Shown piece after piece: positions 2,446 through 8,529 of a stretch of DNA of 9,367 nt. The DNA is taken from assembly GCA_002841685.1 (NCBI GenBank), contig PHAM01000067.1:1-9367 (forward strand). Direction: 5' to 3'. The number at the start of each line of letters is the position of its first letter. Within the stretch, counting starts at the first letter, position 1. The DNA comes from Elusimicrobia bacterium HGW-Elusimicrobia-2. Lineage in GTDB: Bacteria; CG03. Made by a program: the position numbers and the translations under genes. A model generated the notes under the pieces. That model was not told where the DNA came from, searched no databases, and saw nothing but the letters and a program-made list of their open reading frames with translations.

Positions 2446-3176
2446 TTTCTTTCCTCCACATAGGGTGTACCCATATTCCATTTGATTATTGTTCCGTTTT
2501 CCCATGTTCCGCGGATAGTGAAATTAGGGTATACCATGCAATTTTTACTAAGTATGGTTCCCGGCATCGTAACTGAATTGCAGCCTGTTGAAACTCCGTC
2601 TCCGAGAATGGCGCCGAATTTTCTCAAACCCGTCGATATTTTTTCAACGCCATCTCTCACATTTATTATGTCTTCGGTGAGCTTGAAATTGGCGAGCTTT
2701 GTTCCGGCGCCCAGATTCACTTTTCCGAGCACACTGTCCCCTATGTAGGCAAAATGGCCAGCCTTGCTTTGCCCCGTCATTATCGCGTTTTTAATTTCAG
2801 TCGTGTGGCCGATAACGCATCCGGGGCCGGTGATGACCTTGCCCCTTATGTAGGCGCCCTGCCGCACCTCGCTCTTCTCGCCTATTATGACCGGGCCCGT
2901 TATCATAGCTCCGGGCTCGACGACAACTCCCGGGCCAAGCTCTATGTTGTCATCCATAAGAAGAGCGCCCGCGTGAACGACCGCGCCGTTTTCCAGCACT
3001 TTTTTTTCTGTTATAAGGTCACCGCCATTTCTGATGGCGCTAACATTCGGCTTTATGTGTTTCTTAATGTAATCGCCGATCAGCGGCAGCACTTCCCAGA
3101 CAGTTTCAACATCCTTAAAGATTTCCCTGTGGGGAAAACCGCTCAGGTCAAAAAAATCTTCAGCTTTAAAAGTCAA
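2442..3176 (-). CDS. Stand-alone GlmU C-terminal-type acetyltransferase (left-handed beta-helix)
   Basis: This 244-aa protein is built of hexapeptide repeats from about residue 62 to 220, typical of a left-handed parallel beta-helix acyltransferase. The segment SKAGHFAYIGDSVLG with NLGAGTKLANF closely follows the acetyltransferase half of GlmU (SKAGHLTYLGD, NIGAGTITCNY). His141 matches the catalytic His, and Arg111, Lys129, Tyr144 and Asn163 match substrate-binding positions. The N-terminal uridylyltransferase domain is absent. Residues 1-60 are a short helical region (FFDLSGFPHREIF) without a nucleotidyltransferase loop. It probably acetylates glucosamine-1-phosphate, the product of GlmM, whose gene overlaps its 3' end by 4 bp. 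The start is TTG at 3176, with AGGA about 8 nt upstream, and overlaps the lemA 3' end by 11 bp. An upstream ATG in the leader runs straight into TGA and is not used. Other sugar acyltransferases share this fold, so the substrate is inferred. Confidence 0.8.
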   Translation of the reverse strand: MTFKAEDFFDLSGFPHREIFKDVETVWEVLPLIGDYIKKHIKPNVSAIRNGGDLITEKKVLENGAVVHAGALLMDDNIELGPGVVVEPGAMITGPVIIGEKSEVRQGAYIRGKVITGPGCVIGHTTEIKNAIMTGQSKAGHFAYIGDSVLGKVNLGAGTKLANFKLTEDIINVRDGVEKISTGLRKFGAILGDGVSTGCNSVTMPGTILSKNCMVYPNFTIRGTWENGTIIKWNMGTPYVEERK

Positions 3177-3723
3177 TGTTCACATCCTGTCTTTCTCTGC
3201 TTGATATTTTGAAAAGATCGGCGTCTTTATATCCCACGAAAGATGCCAGCAGGGCGTCCGGCAGCTGGTGTATCCTTATGTTATAGACATTCACGCTGTC
3301 GTTGTAGAATTCCCTGCGGTCTGCTATCTGGTTCTCTATCTGCGTTATCCTGCTCTGCAGATGCGCGAAATTCTCGTTCGCTTTCAGTTCCGGATATTTT
3401 TCCGAAAGAGCGAAGAGCTTTCCCAGGGCGCCGCTGAGCATATTTTCCGCCTGGCCCTGCTCGGCAACAGTGCCCGCGTGAATGCAGGCGCCGCGGGCTT
3501 TTATCACATCAACAATCGTTGATTTCTCGTGCCCCATATATCCCTTGACGGTTTTCACCAGCTTCGGGATCTCATCATACCTCTGCTTTAAGAGGACATC
3601 GATGTTGGACCAGGCCTTATCCGCGTTTCTTTTGAGTACCACAAGATTGTTGTAAATCTTGACTATGTATATCACCACCGCGGCAAGCGCGCCCCAGAGC
3701 AGAATATCTATAATATAATCCAT
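3166..3723 (-). CDS. lemA: LemA family membrane protein
   Basis: The protein (185 aa) matches the LemA family in length and architecture. It has one N-terminal membrane segment (about residues 3-23, no signal cleavage site), then a long helical domain beginning YNNLVVLKRNADKAWSNIDV. Further family-typical stretches are QRYDEIPKLVKTVKGYM, KYPELKANENF, LQSRITQIENQIADRREFYNDSVN and a conserved YNIRI near residue 147. The exact biochemical role of LemA proteins is not settled. They are membrane-anchored helical bundles that often sit near GIDE/TPM-type membrane proteins, and a GIDE-like gene lies about 110 bp upstream here. The start is ATG at 3723 with GGGAGG 8 nt upstream. It is the first gene of a unit with the acetyltransferase and glmM, although no functional link to sugar metabolism is evident. 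Confidence 0.92.
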   Translation of the reverse strand: MDYIIDILLWGALAAVVIYIVKIYNNLVVLKRNADKAWSNIDVLLKQRYDEIPKLVKTVKGYMGHEKSTIVDVIKARGACIHAGTVAEQGQAENMLSGALGKLFALSEKYPELKANENFAHLQSRITQIENQIADRREFYNDSVNVYNIRIHQLPDALLASFVGYKDADLFKISSRERQDVNIDF

Positions 3724-3751
3724 AAGCTTTTCCTCCCGCTAAATTTCCTGA

Positions 3752-3779
3752 ATATTAGCAAATTTTGCCTTTCACACAA
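3752..3779 (-). promoter_or_regulatory. Possible promoter for lemA-glmM
   Basis: In the 109-bp gap upstream of lemA, on the minus strand, TTGTGT (3779-3774) is followed after 16 nt by TAATAT (3757-3752). A transcript starting near 3745 would include the GGGAGG site of lemA. The -35 matches only three consensus bases, so read-through from the folP unit is the main alternative. Confidence 0.3.
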
Positions 3780-3832
3780 AAGCCGCGCACTAAGTTAATA
3801 ATCCCAAACAAAGCGCTTTAGGGCGATACATT

Positions 3833-4795
3833 TTATCTTTCGATAAGGCCTGATGAGCGCAAGAGGTTGATCAGAAAATGTGATGAAACGGCAAAAACAA
3901 CAATGCCGCCGAAAATAAAAAAGAAACTTTTCAGCGCGAAGCCGCTCAAAAGTTCCTTCTCGCTTTTATCGGATATGAGCATCTTTTCAGCGTTTCTCCC
4001 CGACACCGCCACATCGCAGAGGTCATCGGCGCCTTCTTCAAGCGCGATCGCTTTTTTAATGCCCTCCACCGCCATAATCCATTCGTGATCGTCCAGATTG
4101 CCGTCGCCGTTTAAATCATATTTCGCGCGTTCGGAGGCACTGGCCTTGATTTCTTTGAGCCGCGTCAGGAGTTTCTCCTTTCTCCCTGCCATCACATCGC
4201 GGCTTTTGCCGGCATAGCCTATGGCATAGAGCTGTTCGCCGGGAGACACATACCATTCGCTGTATCTTTTCGCGCCGTCGCCATAACCTTCCGAATGATA
4301 GTATTTTCTTTCAAGTATGCTGTCGCAGTTAAAGGGCTCTATCAGCACGGTGCCTGTTGAATCCTTGATGTAAAAAGGTGTTATGCTCTGGCCCTCGGCG
4401 ATCACTTTCCAGGCCCGTCGGCGGTTTTTGCCATAGCCTGTCACGGTCAGTTTCTCAACTTTGTATTTATAGAACACACAGTTTATTCCGTTGAGTTTTG
4501 TCTCCAGCGGATACTTCGCGGCGGAGACGCCTTTAAGTTCCACTATGCCCATGGGCATGGAGCGTATTTTTGAGGTGGGGATGTTCTCTATCATGCTCTT
4601 GATGCCGAACAGCTCCCAGCCCCAGAAGAACATGAAAACGCTCAGCACAAGAACAGCCGCCAACGCTATGAGAAGCTTCAGCTCGTTTTCCCCGAGCCTT
4701 ATGTTACAGCCCATAAACAACAGGGCGATAAGAATGAGAACGGCGACAATGCCGGCGTTTCTGATCACCTGATTTATTCTCGGCTGAAAATCCAT
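3833..4795 (-). CDS. GIDE-like integral membrane protein with an EF-hand
   Basis: The ATG at 4795 gives 320 aa. Two hydrophobic segments lie near residues 14-30 and 40-63, and a third near 290-310. Between them, about residues 75-195, is a GIDE-like domain, known from the mitochondrial ligase MULAN and from prokaryotic membrane proteins. Its supporting motifs are GINCVFYKYKVE, ITPFYIKDSTGTVLIEP and a closing YSEWYVSPGEQLYAIGYA. Residues 227-238 (DLNGDGNLDDHE) are a canonical 12-residue EF-hand loop with acidic or Asn ligands at 1, 3, 5, 9 and Glu at 12, so the protein probably binds calcium. No RING finger is present. An alternative start at 4825 would add 10 residues and overlap the upstream gene. 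Neither start has a strong ribosome binding site, and 4795 lies 1 nt after the upstream TAA. Its neighbour lemA fits known LemA-GIDE associations. The molecular function is unknown. Confidence 0.75.
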   Translation of the reverse strand: MDFQPRINQVIRNAGIVAVLILIALLFMGCNIRLGENELKLLIALAAVLVLSVFMFFWGWELFGIKSMIENIPTSKIRSMPMGIVELKGVSAAKYPLETKLNGINCVFYKYKVEKLTVTGYGKNRRRAWKVIAEGQSITPFYIKDSTGTVLIEPFNCDSILERKYYHSEGYGDGAKRYSEWYVSPGEQLYAIGYAGKSRDVMAGRKEKLLTRLKEIKASASERAKYDLNGDGNLDDHEWIMAVEGIKKAIALEEGADDLCDVAVSGRNAEKMLISDKSEKELLSGFALKSFFFIFGGIVVFAVSSHFLINLLRSSGLIER

Positions 4796-4796
4796 A

Positions 4797-5531
4797 TTAA
4801 GCGGAATTGAACAGGCCGCATTCATTCTTGAAATCGCAGGCGCCGCAATAGTTGTTCCGGCGGGGCCGGAAATCGCTCTCCCCCGCCATGCGGTCCGCGG
4901 TCATCTCAACGCGCTGTTTTATTCGTCCGACGTCAAAACGGCTCACGTCATAAGTCACCTTTTTGGCGTGCCTCAGAAAAATATACGAAACCGCCGTTAT
5001 CTTTTTCCTGAAATATTCGGTACAGCCAATGTAGTATATGGGAAGCTGAAGATCTCTCTCAAGCGTTTCCTTCTCGGGTATCTGCCTGTGCGTTTTATAA
5101 TCTATTATCTCAAAACCGCCGTCGTTCCTGTGTATCCTGTCTATAAAGCCCCCCACCTGATGGCGGCCGGCGGAAAACGAGAATTGCGGCTCAACGCGCC
5201 AGGCCGGGCTGAAATCACCGCGGACAAAAACCTCGTAATAATTCTCAAGTATCTGTCTGCCCTCCTCAAAAGCGCGCTCGCTTTCCTCACTGCTGTAGCC
5301 CTCGCTCTTCCAATGCCTCCTGAGCGCGGAAATAAGATTTTCTTTCGAGGGCTTCTTCAGCCCCAGCCAGTACGAGAGGCGGCCCGAATAGAAATCCTCA
5401 AGAGCCGCGTGCAGGGAATGGCCGAAGGAAAAATACTTTTTGTAGGGGGTCTTCACCCTGTCGATATAAACTTTCTTATACGAATACGGGCATTTCTCGT
5501 ACGCGCTCAATTTTGAATAACTCAGCCGCAT
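4797..5531 (-). CDS. RecB/Cas4-like PD-(D/E)XK nuclease with predicted 4Fe-4S cluster
   Basis: This 244-aa protein has the layout of the stand-alone RecB-family nuclease domain (also in AddB and Cas4). It opens with LSYSKLSAYEKCPYSY, the usual start of this superfamily. It then shows GHSLHAALEDF (His41 or His38), GGFIDRI (Asp131), FEIIDYKT (Asp144-x-Lys146) and QLPIYY (Gln162, QxxxY motif). Four cysteines, Cys14 and the C-terminal Cys229, Cys232 and Cys238 (YCGACDFKNECG), match the pattern that holds a 4Fe-4S cluster in AddB and Cas4. There is no helicase domain, and no CRISPR array or cas gene is nearby, so a Cas4 label is not justified. The likely activity is DNA cleavage in repair or recombination. 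The ATG at 5531 follows the folP stop directly (TAAATG), with a G-rich GGGGGCG stretch just upstream that can serve as ribosome binding site, so it is cotranscribed with folP. Confidence 0.85.
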   Translation of the reverse strand: MRLSYSKLSAYEKCPYSYKKVYIDRVKTPYKKYFSFGHSLHAALEDFYSGRLSYWLGLKKPSKENLISALRRHWKSEGYSSEESERAFEEGRQILENYYEVFVRGDFSPAWRVEPQFSFSAGRHQVGGFIDRIHRNDGGFEIIDYKTHRQIPEKETLERDLQLPIYYIGCTEYFRKKITAVSYIFLRHAKKVTYDVSRFDVGRIKQRVEMTADRMAGESDFRPRRNNYCGACDFKNECGLFNSA

Positions 5532-6386
5532 TTATTCGCCCCCGGCTTTCACAATAGCGTCCGTCATAGCCGCGACTCTCTTCATCGCTCCGACATCATG
5601 CACCCTGATCATATCCGCCCCGTTCATAATGGCGGCGGCCACGGCCGCGGCGGTCCCTTCCAGCCTGTCATTCTCCGGAAGGTTCAGCGTTTTGCCGATA
5701 AAAGACTTGCGCGAGACCCCTGCCAGCACGGGCCTGCCGAGTTCTTTTAATTCCGCGAGGCGTTGGAGTATTATGAGATTGTGCTCAACAGTCTTGCCGA
5801 ACCCTATCCCAGGATCCACTATTATCATGTCCTCGCTAATGCCCGCCTCAAGAGCGCCCTTGATAGCTTTGCGCAGATATTCCTTTATGGAATCCATCAC
5901 ATCGTCATAGACGATCACGCCATCCTGCATATTTTCAGGTATCCCCTTGATGTGCATGAGTATGACAGGCACCCCGTAATCGGATGCTATTTCCGGCATC
6001 TTCTTGTCAAACTGAAAAGCGCTTATGTCATTTATCATGGCGGCGCCGTTTTCCAGGGCGGCTCTTGCGACTTCCGATTTGTATGTGTCAATGGAAACGG
6101 GAACATCAAATTTTGAAGACAGCTCTTTTATGAGAGAAGCCGTCCTTCTTATTTCTTCTCCGGCATCTATCGCTTGGGCCCCGGGACGGGTTGACTGACC
6201 GCCTACATCAAGAATGTCGGCGCCCTCTCTGATAAAACGCGCGGCCTGGCGGAGAGCCTCATCATCTGAATTGAGGCCGTCGCCCGAAAAAGAATCCGGC
6301 GATGTGTTGATGATACCCATTATAAAAGTTCTTTCGCCGAAGGGGATGGCGTATTTTTTTCCGGTCGATCTGCTTGTCCAATCCAT
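5532..6386 (-). CDS. folP: Dihydropteroate synthase FolP
   Basis: FolP condenses 6-hydroxymethyl-7,8-dihydropterin pyrophosphate with p-aminobenzoate to form dihydropteroate in folate synthesis, in the cytoplasm. The 284-aa protein is full length for the family. Visible motifs are MGIINTSPDSFSG (residues 23-35, metal and pyrophosphate loop), DVGGQSTRPG (60-69, with Gln where many homologues have Glu), VSIDTYKSEVA, MINDISAF, LMHIKGIPENMQ, VDPGIGFGKTVEHN, LAGVSRKSFIG and a final RVHDV. The ATG at 6386 has no Shine-Dalgarno sequence. It sits 6 nt after a predicted extended -10 element, which suggests a leaderless transcript. The gene heads a unit with the nuclease and the GIDE-like gene. No other folate gene is in the window. 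Confidence 0.95.
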   Translation of the reverse strand: MDWTSRSTGKKYAIPFGERTFIMGIINTSPDSFSGDGLNSDDEALRQAARFIREGADILDVGGQSTRPGAQAIDAGEEIRRTASLIKELSSKFDVPVSIDTYKSEVARAALENGAAMINDISAFQFDKKMPEIASDYGVPVILMHIKGIPENMQDGVIVYDDVMDSIKEYLRKAIKGALEAGISEDMIIVDPGIGFGKTVEHNLIILQRLAELKELGRPVLAGVSRKSFIGKTLNLPENDRLEGTAAAVAAAIMNGADMIRVHDVGAMKRVAAMTDAIVKAGGE

Positions 6387-6392
6387 GGAATT

Positions 6393-6421
6393 ATTTTAGC
6401 AAAAAAACACAAAAATGTTAT
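6393..6421 (-). promoter_or_regulatory. Predicted folP promoter (leaderless)
   Basis: On the minus strand ATAACA (6421-6416, four of six -35 bases) is followed after 17 nt by the extended -10 TGCTAAAAT, whose hexamer TAAAAT is at 6398-6393. The hexamer ends 6 nt before the folP ATG (6386), so the transcript should start at or next to the start codon. It overlaps the divergent lpxK-gmhB promoter almost completely. Confidence 0.55.
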
Positions 6422-6424
6422 AAT
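6396..6424 (+). promoter_or_regulatory. Predicted lpxK-gmhB promoter (leaderless)
   Basis: TTAGCA (6396-6401, four of six -35 bases) is followed after 17 nt by a perfect TATAAT (6419-6424) with an extended TGT just before it. The -10 ends 6 nt before the GTG at 6431, so transcription should begin at or within a base or two of the start codon. This also supports GTG 6431 over any upstream ATG. Confidence 0.6.
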
Positions 6425-6430
6425 GGCGGC

Positions 6431-7894
6431 GTGATTAAACTTATTTCTCTTATCTACGGCGCGGCAACCGGGATAAACCGCTTTTTTTTTGAAAAAGGTT
6501 TACGCAAAAAAGAGATAATGCCGGGTTTTGTGATTTCTGCCGGCAACATATCCGCCGGCGGCACCGGGAAAACGGCTTTTGTCATTGATCTGTGCCGGAT
6601 GCTGGGCGGTAAAAAGAAAACAGCCGTCATAACCCGGGGATATAAAGGAAAAACAAAAGGCCCCGCGCAGGCGCAAACAGGCGCCGGGGCGGCTGAACTT
6701 TTCGGCGATGAAGCCGTGATGATGGCTGAAAAACTCGTCCCGACACCCGTCATTGTCTCCAAAAACAGGATTGCAGGAATAAAATTCGCGCGTAAAAAAT
6801 TCAAAAGCGGCATTTTCATCCTTGATGACGCTTTCCAGAATTTCACAATGGGAAAAGACAGGGACATAGTGATTGTTGACGCCCTTTCTCCCTGGCGGGG
6901 CCTTATGAGGGAAGGGAAGCGCTCTCTCAGACGGGCCGATATGATCGTCATCAGCAAATCAAATCTCGCCGAAACGCGGGATGTGGAAAAATTGAAGGAA
7001 CAAATACGCTCTTTTACAAAAGCTCCCGTTATAAGCTCGGAACTGAAACTCAGCGATATCATGGATATAAAGACTTCGGAAAAAATATCCGCTGTATCCC
7101 TGGAGAACAAAGGGCTCGGGGCCTTCTGCGGCATAGGGAAACCCGATTCTTTCAAAAGATTCCTTGAAAAAAACGGAATCGCCTTAAAACAATTCATATC
7201 TTTCGGCGATCATCATGATTATAACAGCTCCGACATTGATAAGCTGGACAAAAAGCTCACATGGCTGACAACGGCAAAAGACGCCGTGAAGCTCGGAGGC
7301 CTTTCTTCACCCGCCGACATATTAAGCGTTGAAACGGAATCCGCATACAGCGAAGACATATTAAAGCTCATTTTCCCCGGAGGCGGAGAGAACAAAGCCG
7401 TGCTGCTCGACCGTGACGGCACGCTGAATATCGATCCGGGTTATGTAATAAAGAAAAAAGACCTGAAACTCTTTCCTGAAACGATCCCCGCACTCAAAAA
7501 ACTTTCTGACGCCGGTTATCTCCTTATAATAGCAAGCAATCAATCGGGAATAGGCAGAGGTTATTACAGCTTGAATCAGGTGAAGAAATTCAATAAAGCC
7601 CTGACAGACAAACTATCCGGGAACGGAATAAAAATATCGGGCATATACATCTGCCCCCACAGGCCTGATGAAGAATGCGCCTGCAGAAAACCGGAAGCAC
7701 TGCTTTTTGAAAAAGCCATAGACGACTTCGGCATTGATGTCAGCAAAAGCTGGTGCATAGGTGATAAAATAACGGATGTGGAAGGCGCGAAAAAAGTGAA
7801 TATCAAAGGGATCCTTCTAGGCCAGGATTTCAAAAACCTCTCCGATGCCGCCGACTATATTCTAAATTCCGAAAACAAAAATAGCACCTTGTGA
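6431..7894 (+). CDS. lpxK: Fused lipid A 4'-kinase (LpxK) and GmhB-type heptose-bisphosphate phosphatase
   Basis: The GTG start gives 487 aa. Residues 1-316 are LpxK, which phosphorylates tetraacyldisaccharide-1-phosphate at 4' to make lipid IVA at the inner membrane. Seen there are a hydrophobic amphipathic N-terminus (MIKLISLIYG), the P-loop ISAGGTGKT (40-48), VITRGYKG, FGDEAVMMA, ILDDAFQN (130-137, with the conserved acidic pair), FGDHHDY and LTTAKDAV. After a GGGENK linker, residues 322-470 are a HAD phosphatase of the GmhB/histidinol-phosphatase group. It shows DRDGT (327-331), ASNQSGIGRG, the zinc loop CPHRPDEECACRKP (Cys408, His410, Cys416, Cys418) and GDKITD (Asp445). GmhB removes the 7-phosphate of manno-heptose-1,7-bisphosphate on the way to ADP-heptose for the LPS core. 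In-frame ATG 6374 would add 19 residues overlapping folP and lies upstream of the promoter. The second domain's substrate is inferred from family and lipid A context. Confidence 0.92.
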   Translation: MIKLISLIYGAATGINRFFFEKGLRKKEIMPGFVISAGNISAGGTGKTAFVIDLCRMLGGKKKTAVITRGYKGKTKGPAQAQTGAGAAELFGDEAVMMAEKLVPTPVIVSKNRIAGIKFARKKFKSGIFILDDAFQNFTMGKDRDIVIVDALSPWRGLMREGKRSLRRADMIVISKSNLAETRDVEKLKEQIRSFTKAPVISSELKLSDIMDIKTSEKISAVSLENKGLGAFCGIGKPDSFKRFLEKNGIALKQFISFGDHHDYNSSDIDKLDKKLTWLTTAKDAVKLGGLSSPADILSVETESAYSEDILKLIFPGGGENKAVLLDRDGTLNIDPGYVIKKKDLKLFPETIPALKKLSDAGYLLIIASNQSGIGRGYYSLNQVKKFNKALTDKLSGNGIKISGIYICPHRPDEECACRKPEALLFEKAIDDFGIDVSKSWCIGDKITDVEGAKKVNIKGILLGQDFKNLSDAADYILNSENKNSTL

Positions 7895-7917
7895 TTCAAC
7901 CTGCAAACGCAGTTGAA
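7895..7917 (+). terminator. Hairpin at the lpxK-gmhB / higA convergent junction
   Basis: Directly after the stop of the lpxK-gmhB gene, TTCAA-C-CTGC-AAAC-GCAG-TTGAA forms a 9-bp stem with one bulged C and a 4-nt loop. A T-rich but interrupted run follows on the plus strand from 7921. It overlaps the higA stop codon and so could affect both converging transcripts. The lack of a strict T-tract keeps confidence low. Confidence 0.35.
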
Positions 7918-8207
7918 AACGTTTGAATTTCTTTCTTTATTTGTTTGCCTATTTTCTCTTCTTCCACTTCTAAATCATAATGCGCTTGAAGGTTGAGCCA
8001 GAATTGGGGTGACATATTAAAAAATTTTCCTAACCTCAAAGCTGTATTAGCAGAAATTGACCTTATTTCATGCACGATCTCATTGATCCTTCGCGCAGGA
8101 ACATGGATCTCCTTAGCTATACGATACTGGCTTATACCCATAGGCTTAAGAAATTCCTCCAGAAGAATTTCTCCCGGATGTATAGATTTTATTTTCTTCC
8201 CATTCAT
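7896..8207 (-). CDS. higA: HigA-family antitoxin (XRE-type helix-turn-helix)
   Basis: This 103-aa protein matches the HigA/VapI antidote family. IHPGEILLEEFLKPMGISQYRIAKEIHVPARRINEIVHEIRSIS covers the typical HPGE opening and the helix-turn-helix. ANTALRLGKFFNMSPQFWLNLQAHYDLE is the family C-terminal signature. It would bind and neutralise HigB and, as the DNA-binding partner, repress the operon. ATG 8207 is chosen over ATG 8213 because AGGAGG (8221-8216) is 8 nt from the first but only 2 nt from the second. That ribosome binding site overlaps the higB stop codon, so the two genes are coupled. The gene is convergent with lpxK-gmhB, with 1 nt between the stops. Gene order toxin-antitoxin is typical of HigBA. 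Confidence 0.93.
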   Translation of the reverse strand: MNGKKIKSIHPGEILLEEFLKPMGISQYRIAKEIHVPARRINEIVHEIRSISANTALRLGKFFNMSPQFWLNLQAHYDLEVEEEKIGKQIKKEIQTFSTAFAG

Positions 8208-8219
8208 TTTCATCGCCTC

Positions 8220-8501
8220 CTAATGATAATCCACTGTTTCAACAATGTGCGCATTCCCATCATGCCACTTAAAACAAATCCGCCATTGCTTATTAATTCT
8301 AATACTGCGGCTCCCTTTTCGATTACCTTTTAAAATTTCCAAATGGTTTGATGGCGGTATTTTTAAATCATTTAAATCTGCCGCAGCGTCAAGAATCCAT
8401 AATTTCCGCATTGCTGTCCGCTGAATATCACGCGGAATCCGTCGTGAAAATTCACGATTAAATATCTTCTCTGTATCTTTGCACCTAAATGATTTAATCA
8501 C
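8220..8501 (-). CDS. higB: HigB-family toxin (RelE/ParE superfamily)
   Basis: The 93-aa product (GTG start) matches HigB, the RelE-fold mRNA interferase also called plasmid maintenance killer protein. Family features are the opening IKSFRCKDTEKIF, an LDAAADLNDLKIPP segment, HLEILKGNRKG, the core SIRINKQWRICFKW and the C-terminal VETVDYH. The family length is about 92-93 aa, which fits GTG 8501. An in-frame ATG at 8516 would add five residues but lies upstream of the predicted transcription start, since the promoter -10 (8512-8507) is between the two codons. HigB would cleave mRNA at the ribosome and is held in check by HigA. Only 12 nt separate its stop from the higA start. Confidence 0.92.
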   Translation of the reverse strand: MIKSFRCKDTEKIFNREFSRRIPRDIQRTAMRKLWILDAAADLNDLKIPPSNHLEILKGNRKGSRSIRINKQWRICFKWHDGNAHIVETVDYH

Positions 8502-8506
8502 GCTGA

Positions 8507-8529
8507 ATAGTAACATTGGCCGTTACTAT
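8507..8529. promoter_or_regulatory. Palindromic operator of higBA
   Basis: A perfect inverted repeat, ATAGTAAC - 7 nt - GTTACTAT, fills the space between the -35 and -10 elements and covers the -10 itself. HigA-type antitoxins are known to repress their own operons by binding such palindromes over the promoter. The placement is exactly what autoregulation needs. Binding by this HigA is inferred. Confidence 0.7.

Follow-up and report, generated by a model that had tools for sequence, protein, structure and literature searches.

The closest known system for the N-terminal half of the protein considered here is the LpxK of A. aeolicus (PDB 4ehx/4ehy), which employs K51, T52, D99, E100, D138, D139 and H261 as catalytic residues and depends on an N-terminal amphipathic helix (PMC6286764). 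For the C-terminal half, the point of comparison is E. coli GmhB (PDB 2gmw/3l8e), a phosphatase for which the HAD DxDx(T/V) motif, a S/T residue, an acidic pair and a CxH...CxC loop serve as reference motifs (PMC8204981). Fusions between neighbouring enzymes are themselves known from the bifunctional E. coli enzymes HldE, which acts in the ADP-heptose pathway, and HisB, which carries a homologous HAD domain; in these cases, however, both partners belong to one pathway, whereas the LpxK and GmhB steps lie in converging branches of LPS synthesis and share no common intermediate.

In the window, by which we mean the whole 9,367-nucleotide stretch of DNA that was analysed, we found both enzymes encoded by an uninterrupted frame of 487 codons, without any stop between the domains: a complete LpxK is followed by a six-residue linker and a complete GmhB-type HAD phosphatase (Table 1). 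The gene is solitary in its own genome and is transcribed divergently from folP. Its start codon is probably the GTG at position 6431, the same place being occupied by ATG in one relative, and an alternative in-frame start exists at the TTG at 6374. As an additional observation, the extended -10 promoter-like site (window 6396-6431) ends so close to this GTG, about 7 nt upstream, that the transcript may be leaderless.

Table 1. Features of the fused lpxK-gmhB gene and its surroundings (window coordinates; residue numbers refer to the fused protein)
Feature	Position	Strand	Basis
Promoter-like site TTAGCA-17-TATAAT, extended -10 TG, ~7 nt 5' of the start codon	6396..6424	+	Consensus scan, 10/12; by itself no evidence of function
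Fused gene lpxK-gmhB, 487 aa, GTG start, TGA stop (7892-7894)	6431..7894	+	Open frame; shared with three further members of the genus
LpxK domain, aa 1-315, predicted tetraacyldisaccharide 4'-kinase; N-terminal helix predicted at aa 2-21	6431..7375	+	Profiles, PDB, Foldseek, model
Walker A GGTGKT; K47, T48 = A. aeolicus K51, T52	6557..6574	+	Alignment to 4ehx
D93-E94 = A. aeolicus D99, E100	6707..6712	+	Alignment; role from PMC6286764
Walker B D132-D133 = A. aeolicus D138, D139	6824..6829	+	Alignment
H261 of the DHH motif = A. aeolicus H261	7211..7213	+	Alignment
Linker PGGGEN, aa 316-321	7376..7393	+	PGGG invariant in four genomes; lies between the domains in family matches and model
GmhB domain, aa 322-487, HAD-IIIA, D-glycero-D-manno-heptose-1,7-bisphosphate 7-phosphatase type	7394..7891	+	Profiles, PDB, Foldseek
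HAD motif I DRDGT (D327 nucleophile, D329)	7409..7423	+	Sequence, alignment to E. coli GmhB
Zinc loop C408-X-H410 ... C416-X-C418	7652..7684	+	Sequence; ligands C-P-H and C-x-C coincide with those of E. coli GmhB in the alignment
HAD acidic motif D445...D449 (GDKITD)	7763..7777	+	Sequence

The N-terminal domain matched the LpxK family profile over aa 4-308 (PF02606, E=2.6e-66, 224.4 bits versus a cut-off of 27) and the TIGR00682 model over positions 2-311 of 324 (177.2 bits versus 91.95), and the A. aeolicus enzyme was recovered both by sequence (4ehx, E=2.5e-33) and by a Foldseek search with the predicted structure (4ehy, E=1.3e-23). As judged by alignment, all seven A. aeolicus catalytic residues are conserved, and the domain resembles that enzyme in its fold, its Walker A and B motifs, the equivalents of D99, E100 and H261 and the N-terminal helix. 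Besides the second enzyme at its C-terminus, the fused protein differs from A. aeolicus LpxK at some substrate or nucleotide contacts: among the lipid-contact residues, R72 and R119 are kept, whereas H143 is replaced by N137 and E117 by K111; Q240 corresponds to S240, in a poorly conserved region. In A. aeolicus, H143 contacts the 1-phosphate of lipid A; at this position the present family has Asn (LDDAFQN; window 6821-6841, aa 131-137), and several other families of the phylum have Ser (LDDGFQS).

Concerning the C-terminal domain (aa 321-474 in the profile comparison), the GmhB model PRK08942 gave the best score of the HAD families, 152.8 bits versus a cut-off of 178, and GmhB_yaeD (TIGR00213) likewise stayed below its cut-off (130.7 versus 149.6 bits); the HAD-IIIA (113.9 bits) and TIGR01656 models were passed, and hisB_Nterm (TIGR01261) reached 105.5 of the 140 bits required. 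E. coli GmhB was again retrieved by sequence (3l8e, E=5e-25) and by Foldseek with the model (2gmw, E=2.1e-12). The motif residues are all present (D327, D329, S369/N370, C408, H410, C416, C418, R419, K420, D445, D449), and the domain shares with E. coli GmhB the HAD motifs, the CxH...CxC zinc loop and NQSGIxRG; it differs in being part of a larger chain, in its shorter zinc-loop insert and in scoring below the curated GmhB cut-offs. An AlphaFold model of the fused protein, built from the window and related-locus sequences (mean pLDDT 90, pTM 0.78), contains both folds as well-formed domains with a short linker between them. A first-pass annotation of this DNA had proposed an LpxK and a GmhB-type phosphatase in one frame, and the open frame, the matches to both families and the intact catalytic motifs bear this out.

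The genus that carries the fusion is a small group of groundwater bacteria without cultured members, and all four of its genomes compared here encode it, the three other copies being 77% (G002), 70% (G003) and 96% (G004) identical to the window protein, with PGGG(E/T/K)N as the linker throughout. The G002 copy comes from Elusimicrobia bacterium CG03_land_8_20_14_0_80_50_18 (PEUP01000040.1). The G004 copy is split at aa 436 by a contig end and its remainder lies at the edge of another contig, from which we infer that the gene continues across the break. Both domains are under purifying selection, with dN/dS well below 1 (Nei-Gojobori, four pairs: 0.09-0.26 for LpxK and 0.11-0.14 for GmhB, several dS values being near saturation and the ratios for distant pairs therefore rough). 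All genomes involved are draft metagenome assemblies, which might be taken to favour a missed stop or frameshift in assembly or annotation; however, the same fusion with its PGGG linker recurs in four genomes at 70-96% identity, PEUP01000040.1 among them, and the first-pass annotation's own test, a stop or frameshift between the domains in relatives, turned up none. We consequently consider an artefact of any kind to be practically negligible, and that of a single assembly is rejected, the occurrence in four genomes being far beyond chance.

With regard to the pathway in which the phosphatase would act, the own genome encodes the other ADP-heptose enzymes. HldE is split (loci L154 and L156): the kinase half stands with kdsB-kdsA-kdsD-dnaA on contig C87 and the adenylyltransferase half adjoins gmhA on contig C94. 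hldD is found on contig C62, and several heptosyltransferase-like genes are present. In terms of NCBIfam scores, rfaE_dom_I (355.8 bits) and rfaE_dom_II (185.3 bits) exceed their cut-offs, and gmhA (186.6 bits) and hldD (266.0 bits) fall slightly below theirs; the two partners over the cut-offs suggest the beta route for heptose-1,7-bisphosphate. Family and composite protein searches for a second GmhB in this 96% complete genome found none, and its second PF13242 match was rejected as phosphoglycolate-phosphatase-like. As a result, the first-pass annotation's question about a second gmhB and about gmhA, hldE and hldD could be answered: the rest of the pathway is there and no second GmhB was found, so that the fused domain would fill the one missing step, the absences in this genome being provisional because of its 96% completeness.

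A related HAD domain could instead serve histidine synthesis, and we consider it quite improbable that the C-terminal domain is mainly or additionally a histidinol-phosphate phosphatase. The own genome contains hisD, an unfused IGPD hisB, hisC, hisA, hisF and hisH (on contigs C31, C91 and C67, with IGPD alone beside hisD on C91), no PHP-type histidinol phosphatase was found in it at 96% completeness, and no HAD of the HisB-N/GmhB type other than the fused domain was found there; moreover, an IMPase-like candidate scored 143 bits, far under the HisN cut-off of 275. These findings leave some room for an additional activity on histidinol phosphate. A protein of the IMPase family could nevertheless take the HisN role, the GmhB models outscore the HisB-N models by 152.8 to 105.5 bits, and the motif NQSGIGRG is GmhB-like where HisB has NQDGLGTQ. 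Furthermore, the unfused orthologue lies inside an lpxK-gmhB-hldE-kds operon in G005 and G006, which represent two further genera of this family. A main role on histidinol phosphate is unlikely since gmhB is kept in this LPS operon in both genomes, neither of which gave a hisD or IGPD match. The GmhB assignment of the first-pass annotation is thus favoured over HisB by scores, motif and LPS-operon orthologues, and a HisB-type phosphatase as the main role is not favoured.

The same two genera indicate how the fusion may have arisen. In G005 and G006, lpxK and gmhB form two distinct ORFs that overlap, the gmhB start of G006 lying 29 bases upstream of the lpxK end, and the gene order is lpxK, gmhB, a methyltransferase-like gene, hldE-kinase, kdsB, kdsA, kdsD and dnaA. 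The own genome retains the hldE-kdsB-kdsA-kdsD-dnaA block on C87 without lpxK or gmhB. At the junction of the fused protein, the last LpxK residues VETESAYSEDILKLIF, aligned to VETVIKTDDRIKNLFL-stop of G006, lead through PGGG directly into the GmhB core, and the basic, hydrophobic N-terminal extension of ~25 aa found on the unfused GmhBs of G005 and G006 is missing. In the GmhB tree, the fused LpxK-GmhB domains cluster with unfused GmhBs from their own family (support 100/99). These arrangements are consistent with an ancestral lpxK-gmhB-hldE-kdsBAD operon with lpxK and gmhB as tightly packed, overlapping neighbours, which in the ancestor of the genus would have been joined in frame through a short Gly-rich linker, the fused gene then presumably becoming its own transcription unit beside folP.

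Further GmhB fusions were encountered beyond the genus. In seven genomes (G008, G010-G015) that belong to the phylum's other families, GmhB forms the C-terminal part of a protein of ~460 aa, its N-terminal part being a lipid A acyltransferase of the LpxL/HtrB type, and a free lpxK lies directly downstream (loci L112, L113, L015-L018, L021-L027). In five Elusimicrobiota genomes (G370, G372, G373, G377 and G378; loci L194, L191, L195, L190 and L166, respectively), it is C-terminal to an O-antigen-ligase-type membrane protein (PF04932) in proteins of 559-584 aa, and G371, from the same Elusimicrobiota group, has GmhB in a frame of similar length, the frames of all six genomes being given as 566-585 aa. 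In G279 (L160 2524-3876), DUF3108 is fused behind GmhB; the upstream lpxK ends in TAA, the next codon being the gmhB ATG in the same frame, so that this genome, the best candidate of the Elusimicrobiota group for an LpxK-GmhB fusion, was rejected on account of the stop between the domains. The LpxL, O-antigen ligase and DUF3108 proteins are like LpxK-GmhB in joining GmhB to an LPS-operon neighbour, with partners that differ. On the tree of GmhB sequences, every fused group occupies one side of a branch and the partner types form separate groups; GmhB has thus been fused several times, independently, to different LPS neighbours. At other Elusimicrobiota loci (L060, L074, L094), lpxK and gmhB are adjacent or overlapping yet separate. 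LpxK, in turn, is joined to another LPS enzyme in the WaaA-LpxK protein of Selenomonadaceae (L091 4582-7062, 827 aa), where, in contrast to the present case, the partner is the Kdo transferase and stands at the N-terminus. Separately, in the phylum of an Omnitrophica locus, an 804-aa frame containing GmhB (G535 C27:2604-3050) and frames of 718-814 aa containing LpxKs (G570 C19, G697 C19, G451 C1) are probably further fusions.

Taken together, these results point to a bifunctional LPS enzyme that arose by the fusion of operon neighbours and has two independent active sites, a reading to which we assign a probability of roughly 0.8. Working at the inner face of the inner membrane, the LpxK domain would add a phosphate to the lipid A disaccharide at its 4'-position, and the GmhB domain would take the 7-phosphate off D-glycero-D-manno-heptose-1,7-bisphosphate for ADP-heptose and the inner core; the exchange of partners in relatives suggests that the two sites most likely work independently. 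Speaking against this reading are the exchanged substrate or nucleotide contacts of the LpxK domain and the GmhB model scores beneath the curated cut-offs. Likely consequences would be co-expression in a fixed ratio and an incidental localisation of GmhB at the membrane, and a benefit from joint dosage and fixed stoichiometry, or from GmhB being held at the membrane, is possible. A link peculiar to these two enzymes, serving substrate channelling or mutual regulation and akin to the functional tie of lipid A phosphorylation to heptose supply that the first-pass annotation had envisaged, is very improbable. Both enzymes do act before the inner core joins lipid A, and the linker is short and conserved; however, LpxK and GmhB have no intermediate in common, and GmhB has three other fusion partners in relatives while the lpxK next door stays free. 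As the phosphatase of relatives is fused to whichever LPS gene adjoins it, or overlaps lpxK unfused, the envisaged tie was not upheld, and this pattern of partners is better accommodated by a fusion of operon neighbours.

The same pattern could also be read as selection for position, with the fusion placing GmhB at the inner membrane in an LPS assembly cluster where the heptose precursor is made beside lipid A, which we regard as unlikely. The inner membrane is the site of action of LpxK, LpxL and the O-antigen ligase, that is, of three of the four fusion partners, and LpxK, LpxL, the ligase and the DUF3108 protein could be alternative ways to the same tether; the very same partners are, however, simply operon neighbours. 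The ~25-aa N-terminal extension that unfused GmhB carries in both sister genera might represent another such tether, but its hydrophobic moment is ordinary in G006 (28% of GmhB 18-mers are as high) and mildly unusual in G005 (7.5%), so that the test for an amphipathic helix on the unfused GmhBs of this family is weakly positive and at most suggestive. In addition, most Elusimicrobiota GmhBs are, among the matches listed, free short proteins. The broader proposal, that fusions to LpxK, LpxL, O-antigen ligase and DUF3108 have selectively and more than once brought GmhB to the inner membrane across Elusimicrobiota and their sister phylum, is doubtful; if true, such recurrent recruitment would reveal a membrane-bound LPS assembly complex in which the heptose precursor is made on site.

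As to its distribution, the LpxK-GmhB fusion is confined to this genus among 16 genomes of its phylum, and it was not found among the matches listed for 340 genomes of the Elusimicrobiota group or for 384 genomes from the phylum to which an Omnitrophica locus belongs, in ranked match lists at the top of which a full-length fusion would stand; a widespread architecture was thus rejected for these genomes and matches. No published description of LpxK-GmhB, GmhB-LpxL or LpxK fusion proteins was found in the open literature searched, in agreement with the remark of the first-pass annotation that this is not known as a standard architecture. While LpxK joined to another LPS enzyme has a parallel in WaaA-LpxK, the pairing of LpxK with GmhB itself appears to be new.

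Overall, the LpxK-GmhB protein looks like a real, conserved and fairly ordinary fusion of adjacent genes, and it represents a new domain architecture that unites in one chain the two branches of LPS synthesis leading to lipid A and to heptose. Together with the GmhB fusions of its relatives, it forms a natural series of one phosphatase on different neighbours, which makes it testable whether such fusions are by-products of tight operons, and also whether heptose precursor synthesis benefits from a position at the inner membrane. Automatic annotation of these genomes will tend to name only one of the two enzymes.

Two further features of the window deserve mention. Directly behind lpxK-gmhB, on the opposite strand, lies a HigA-HigB type toxin-antitoxin pair (window 7896-8516), and further upstream a LemA protein adjoins a GIDE-type (PF12483) membrane protein (window 3169-4825).
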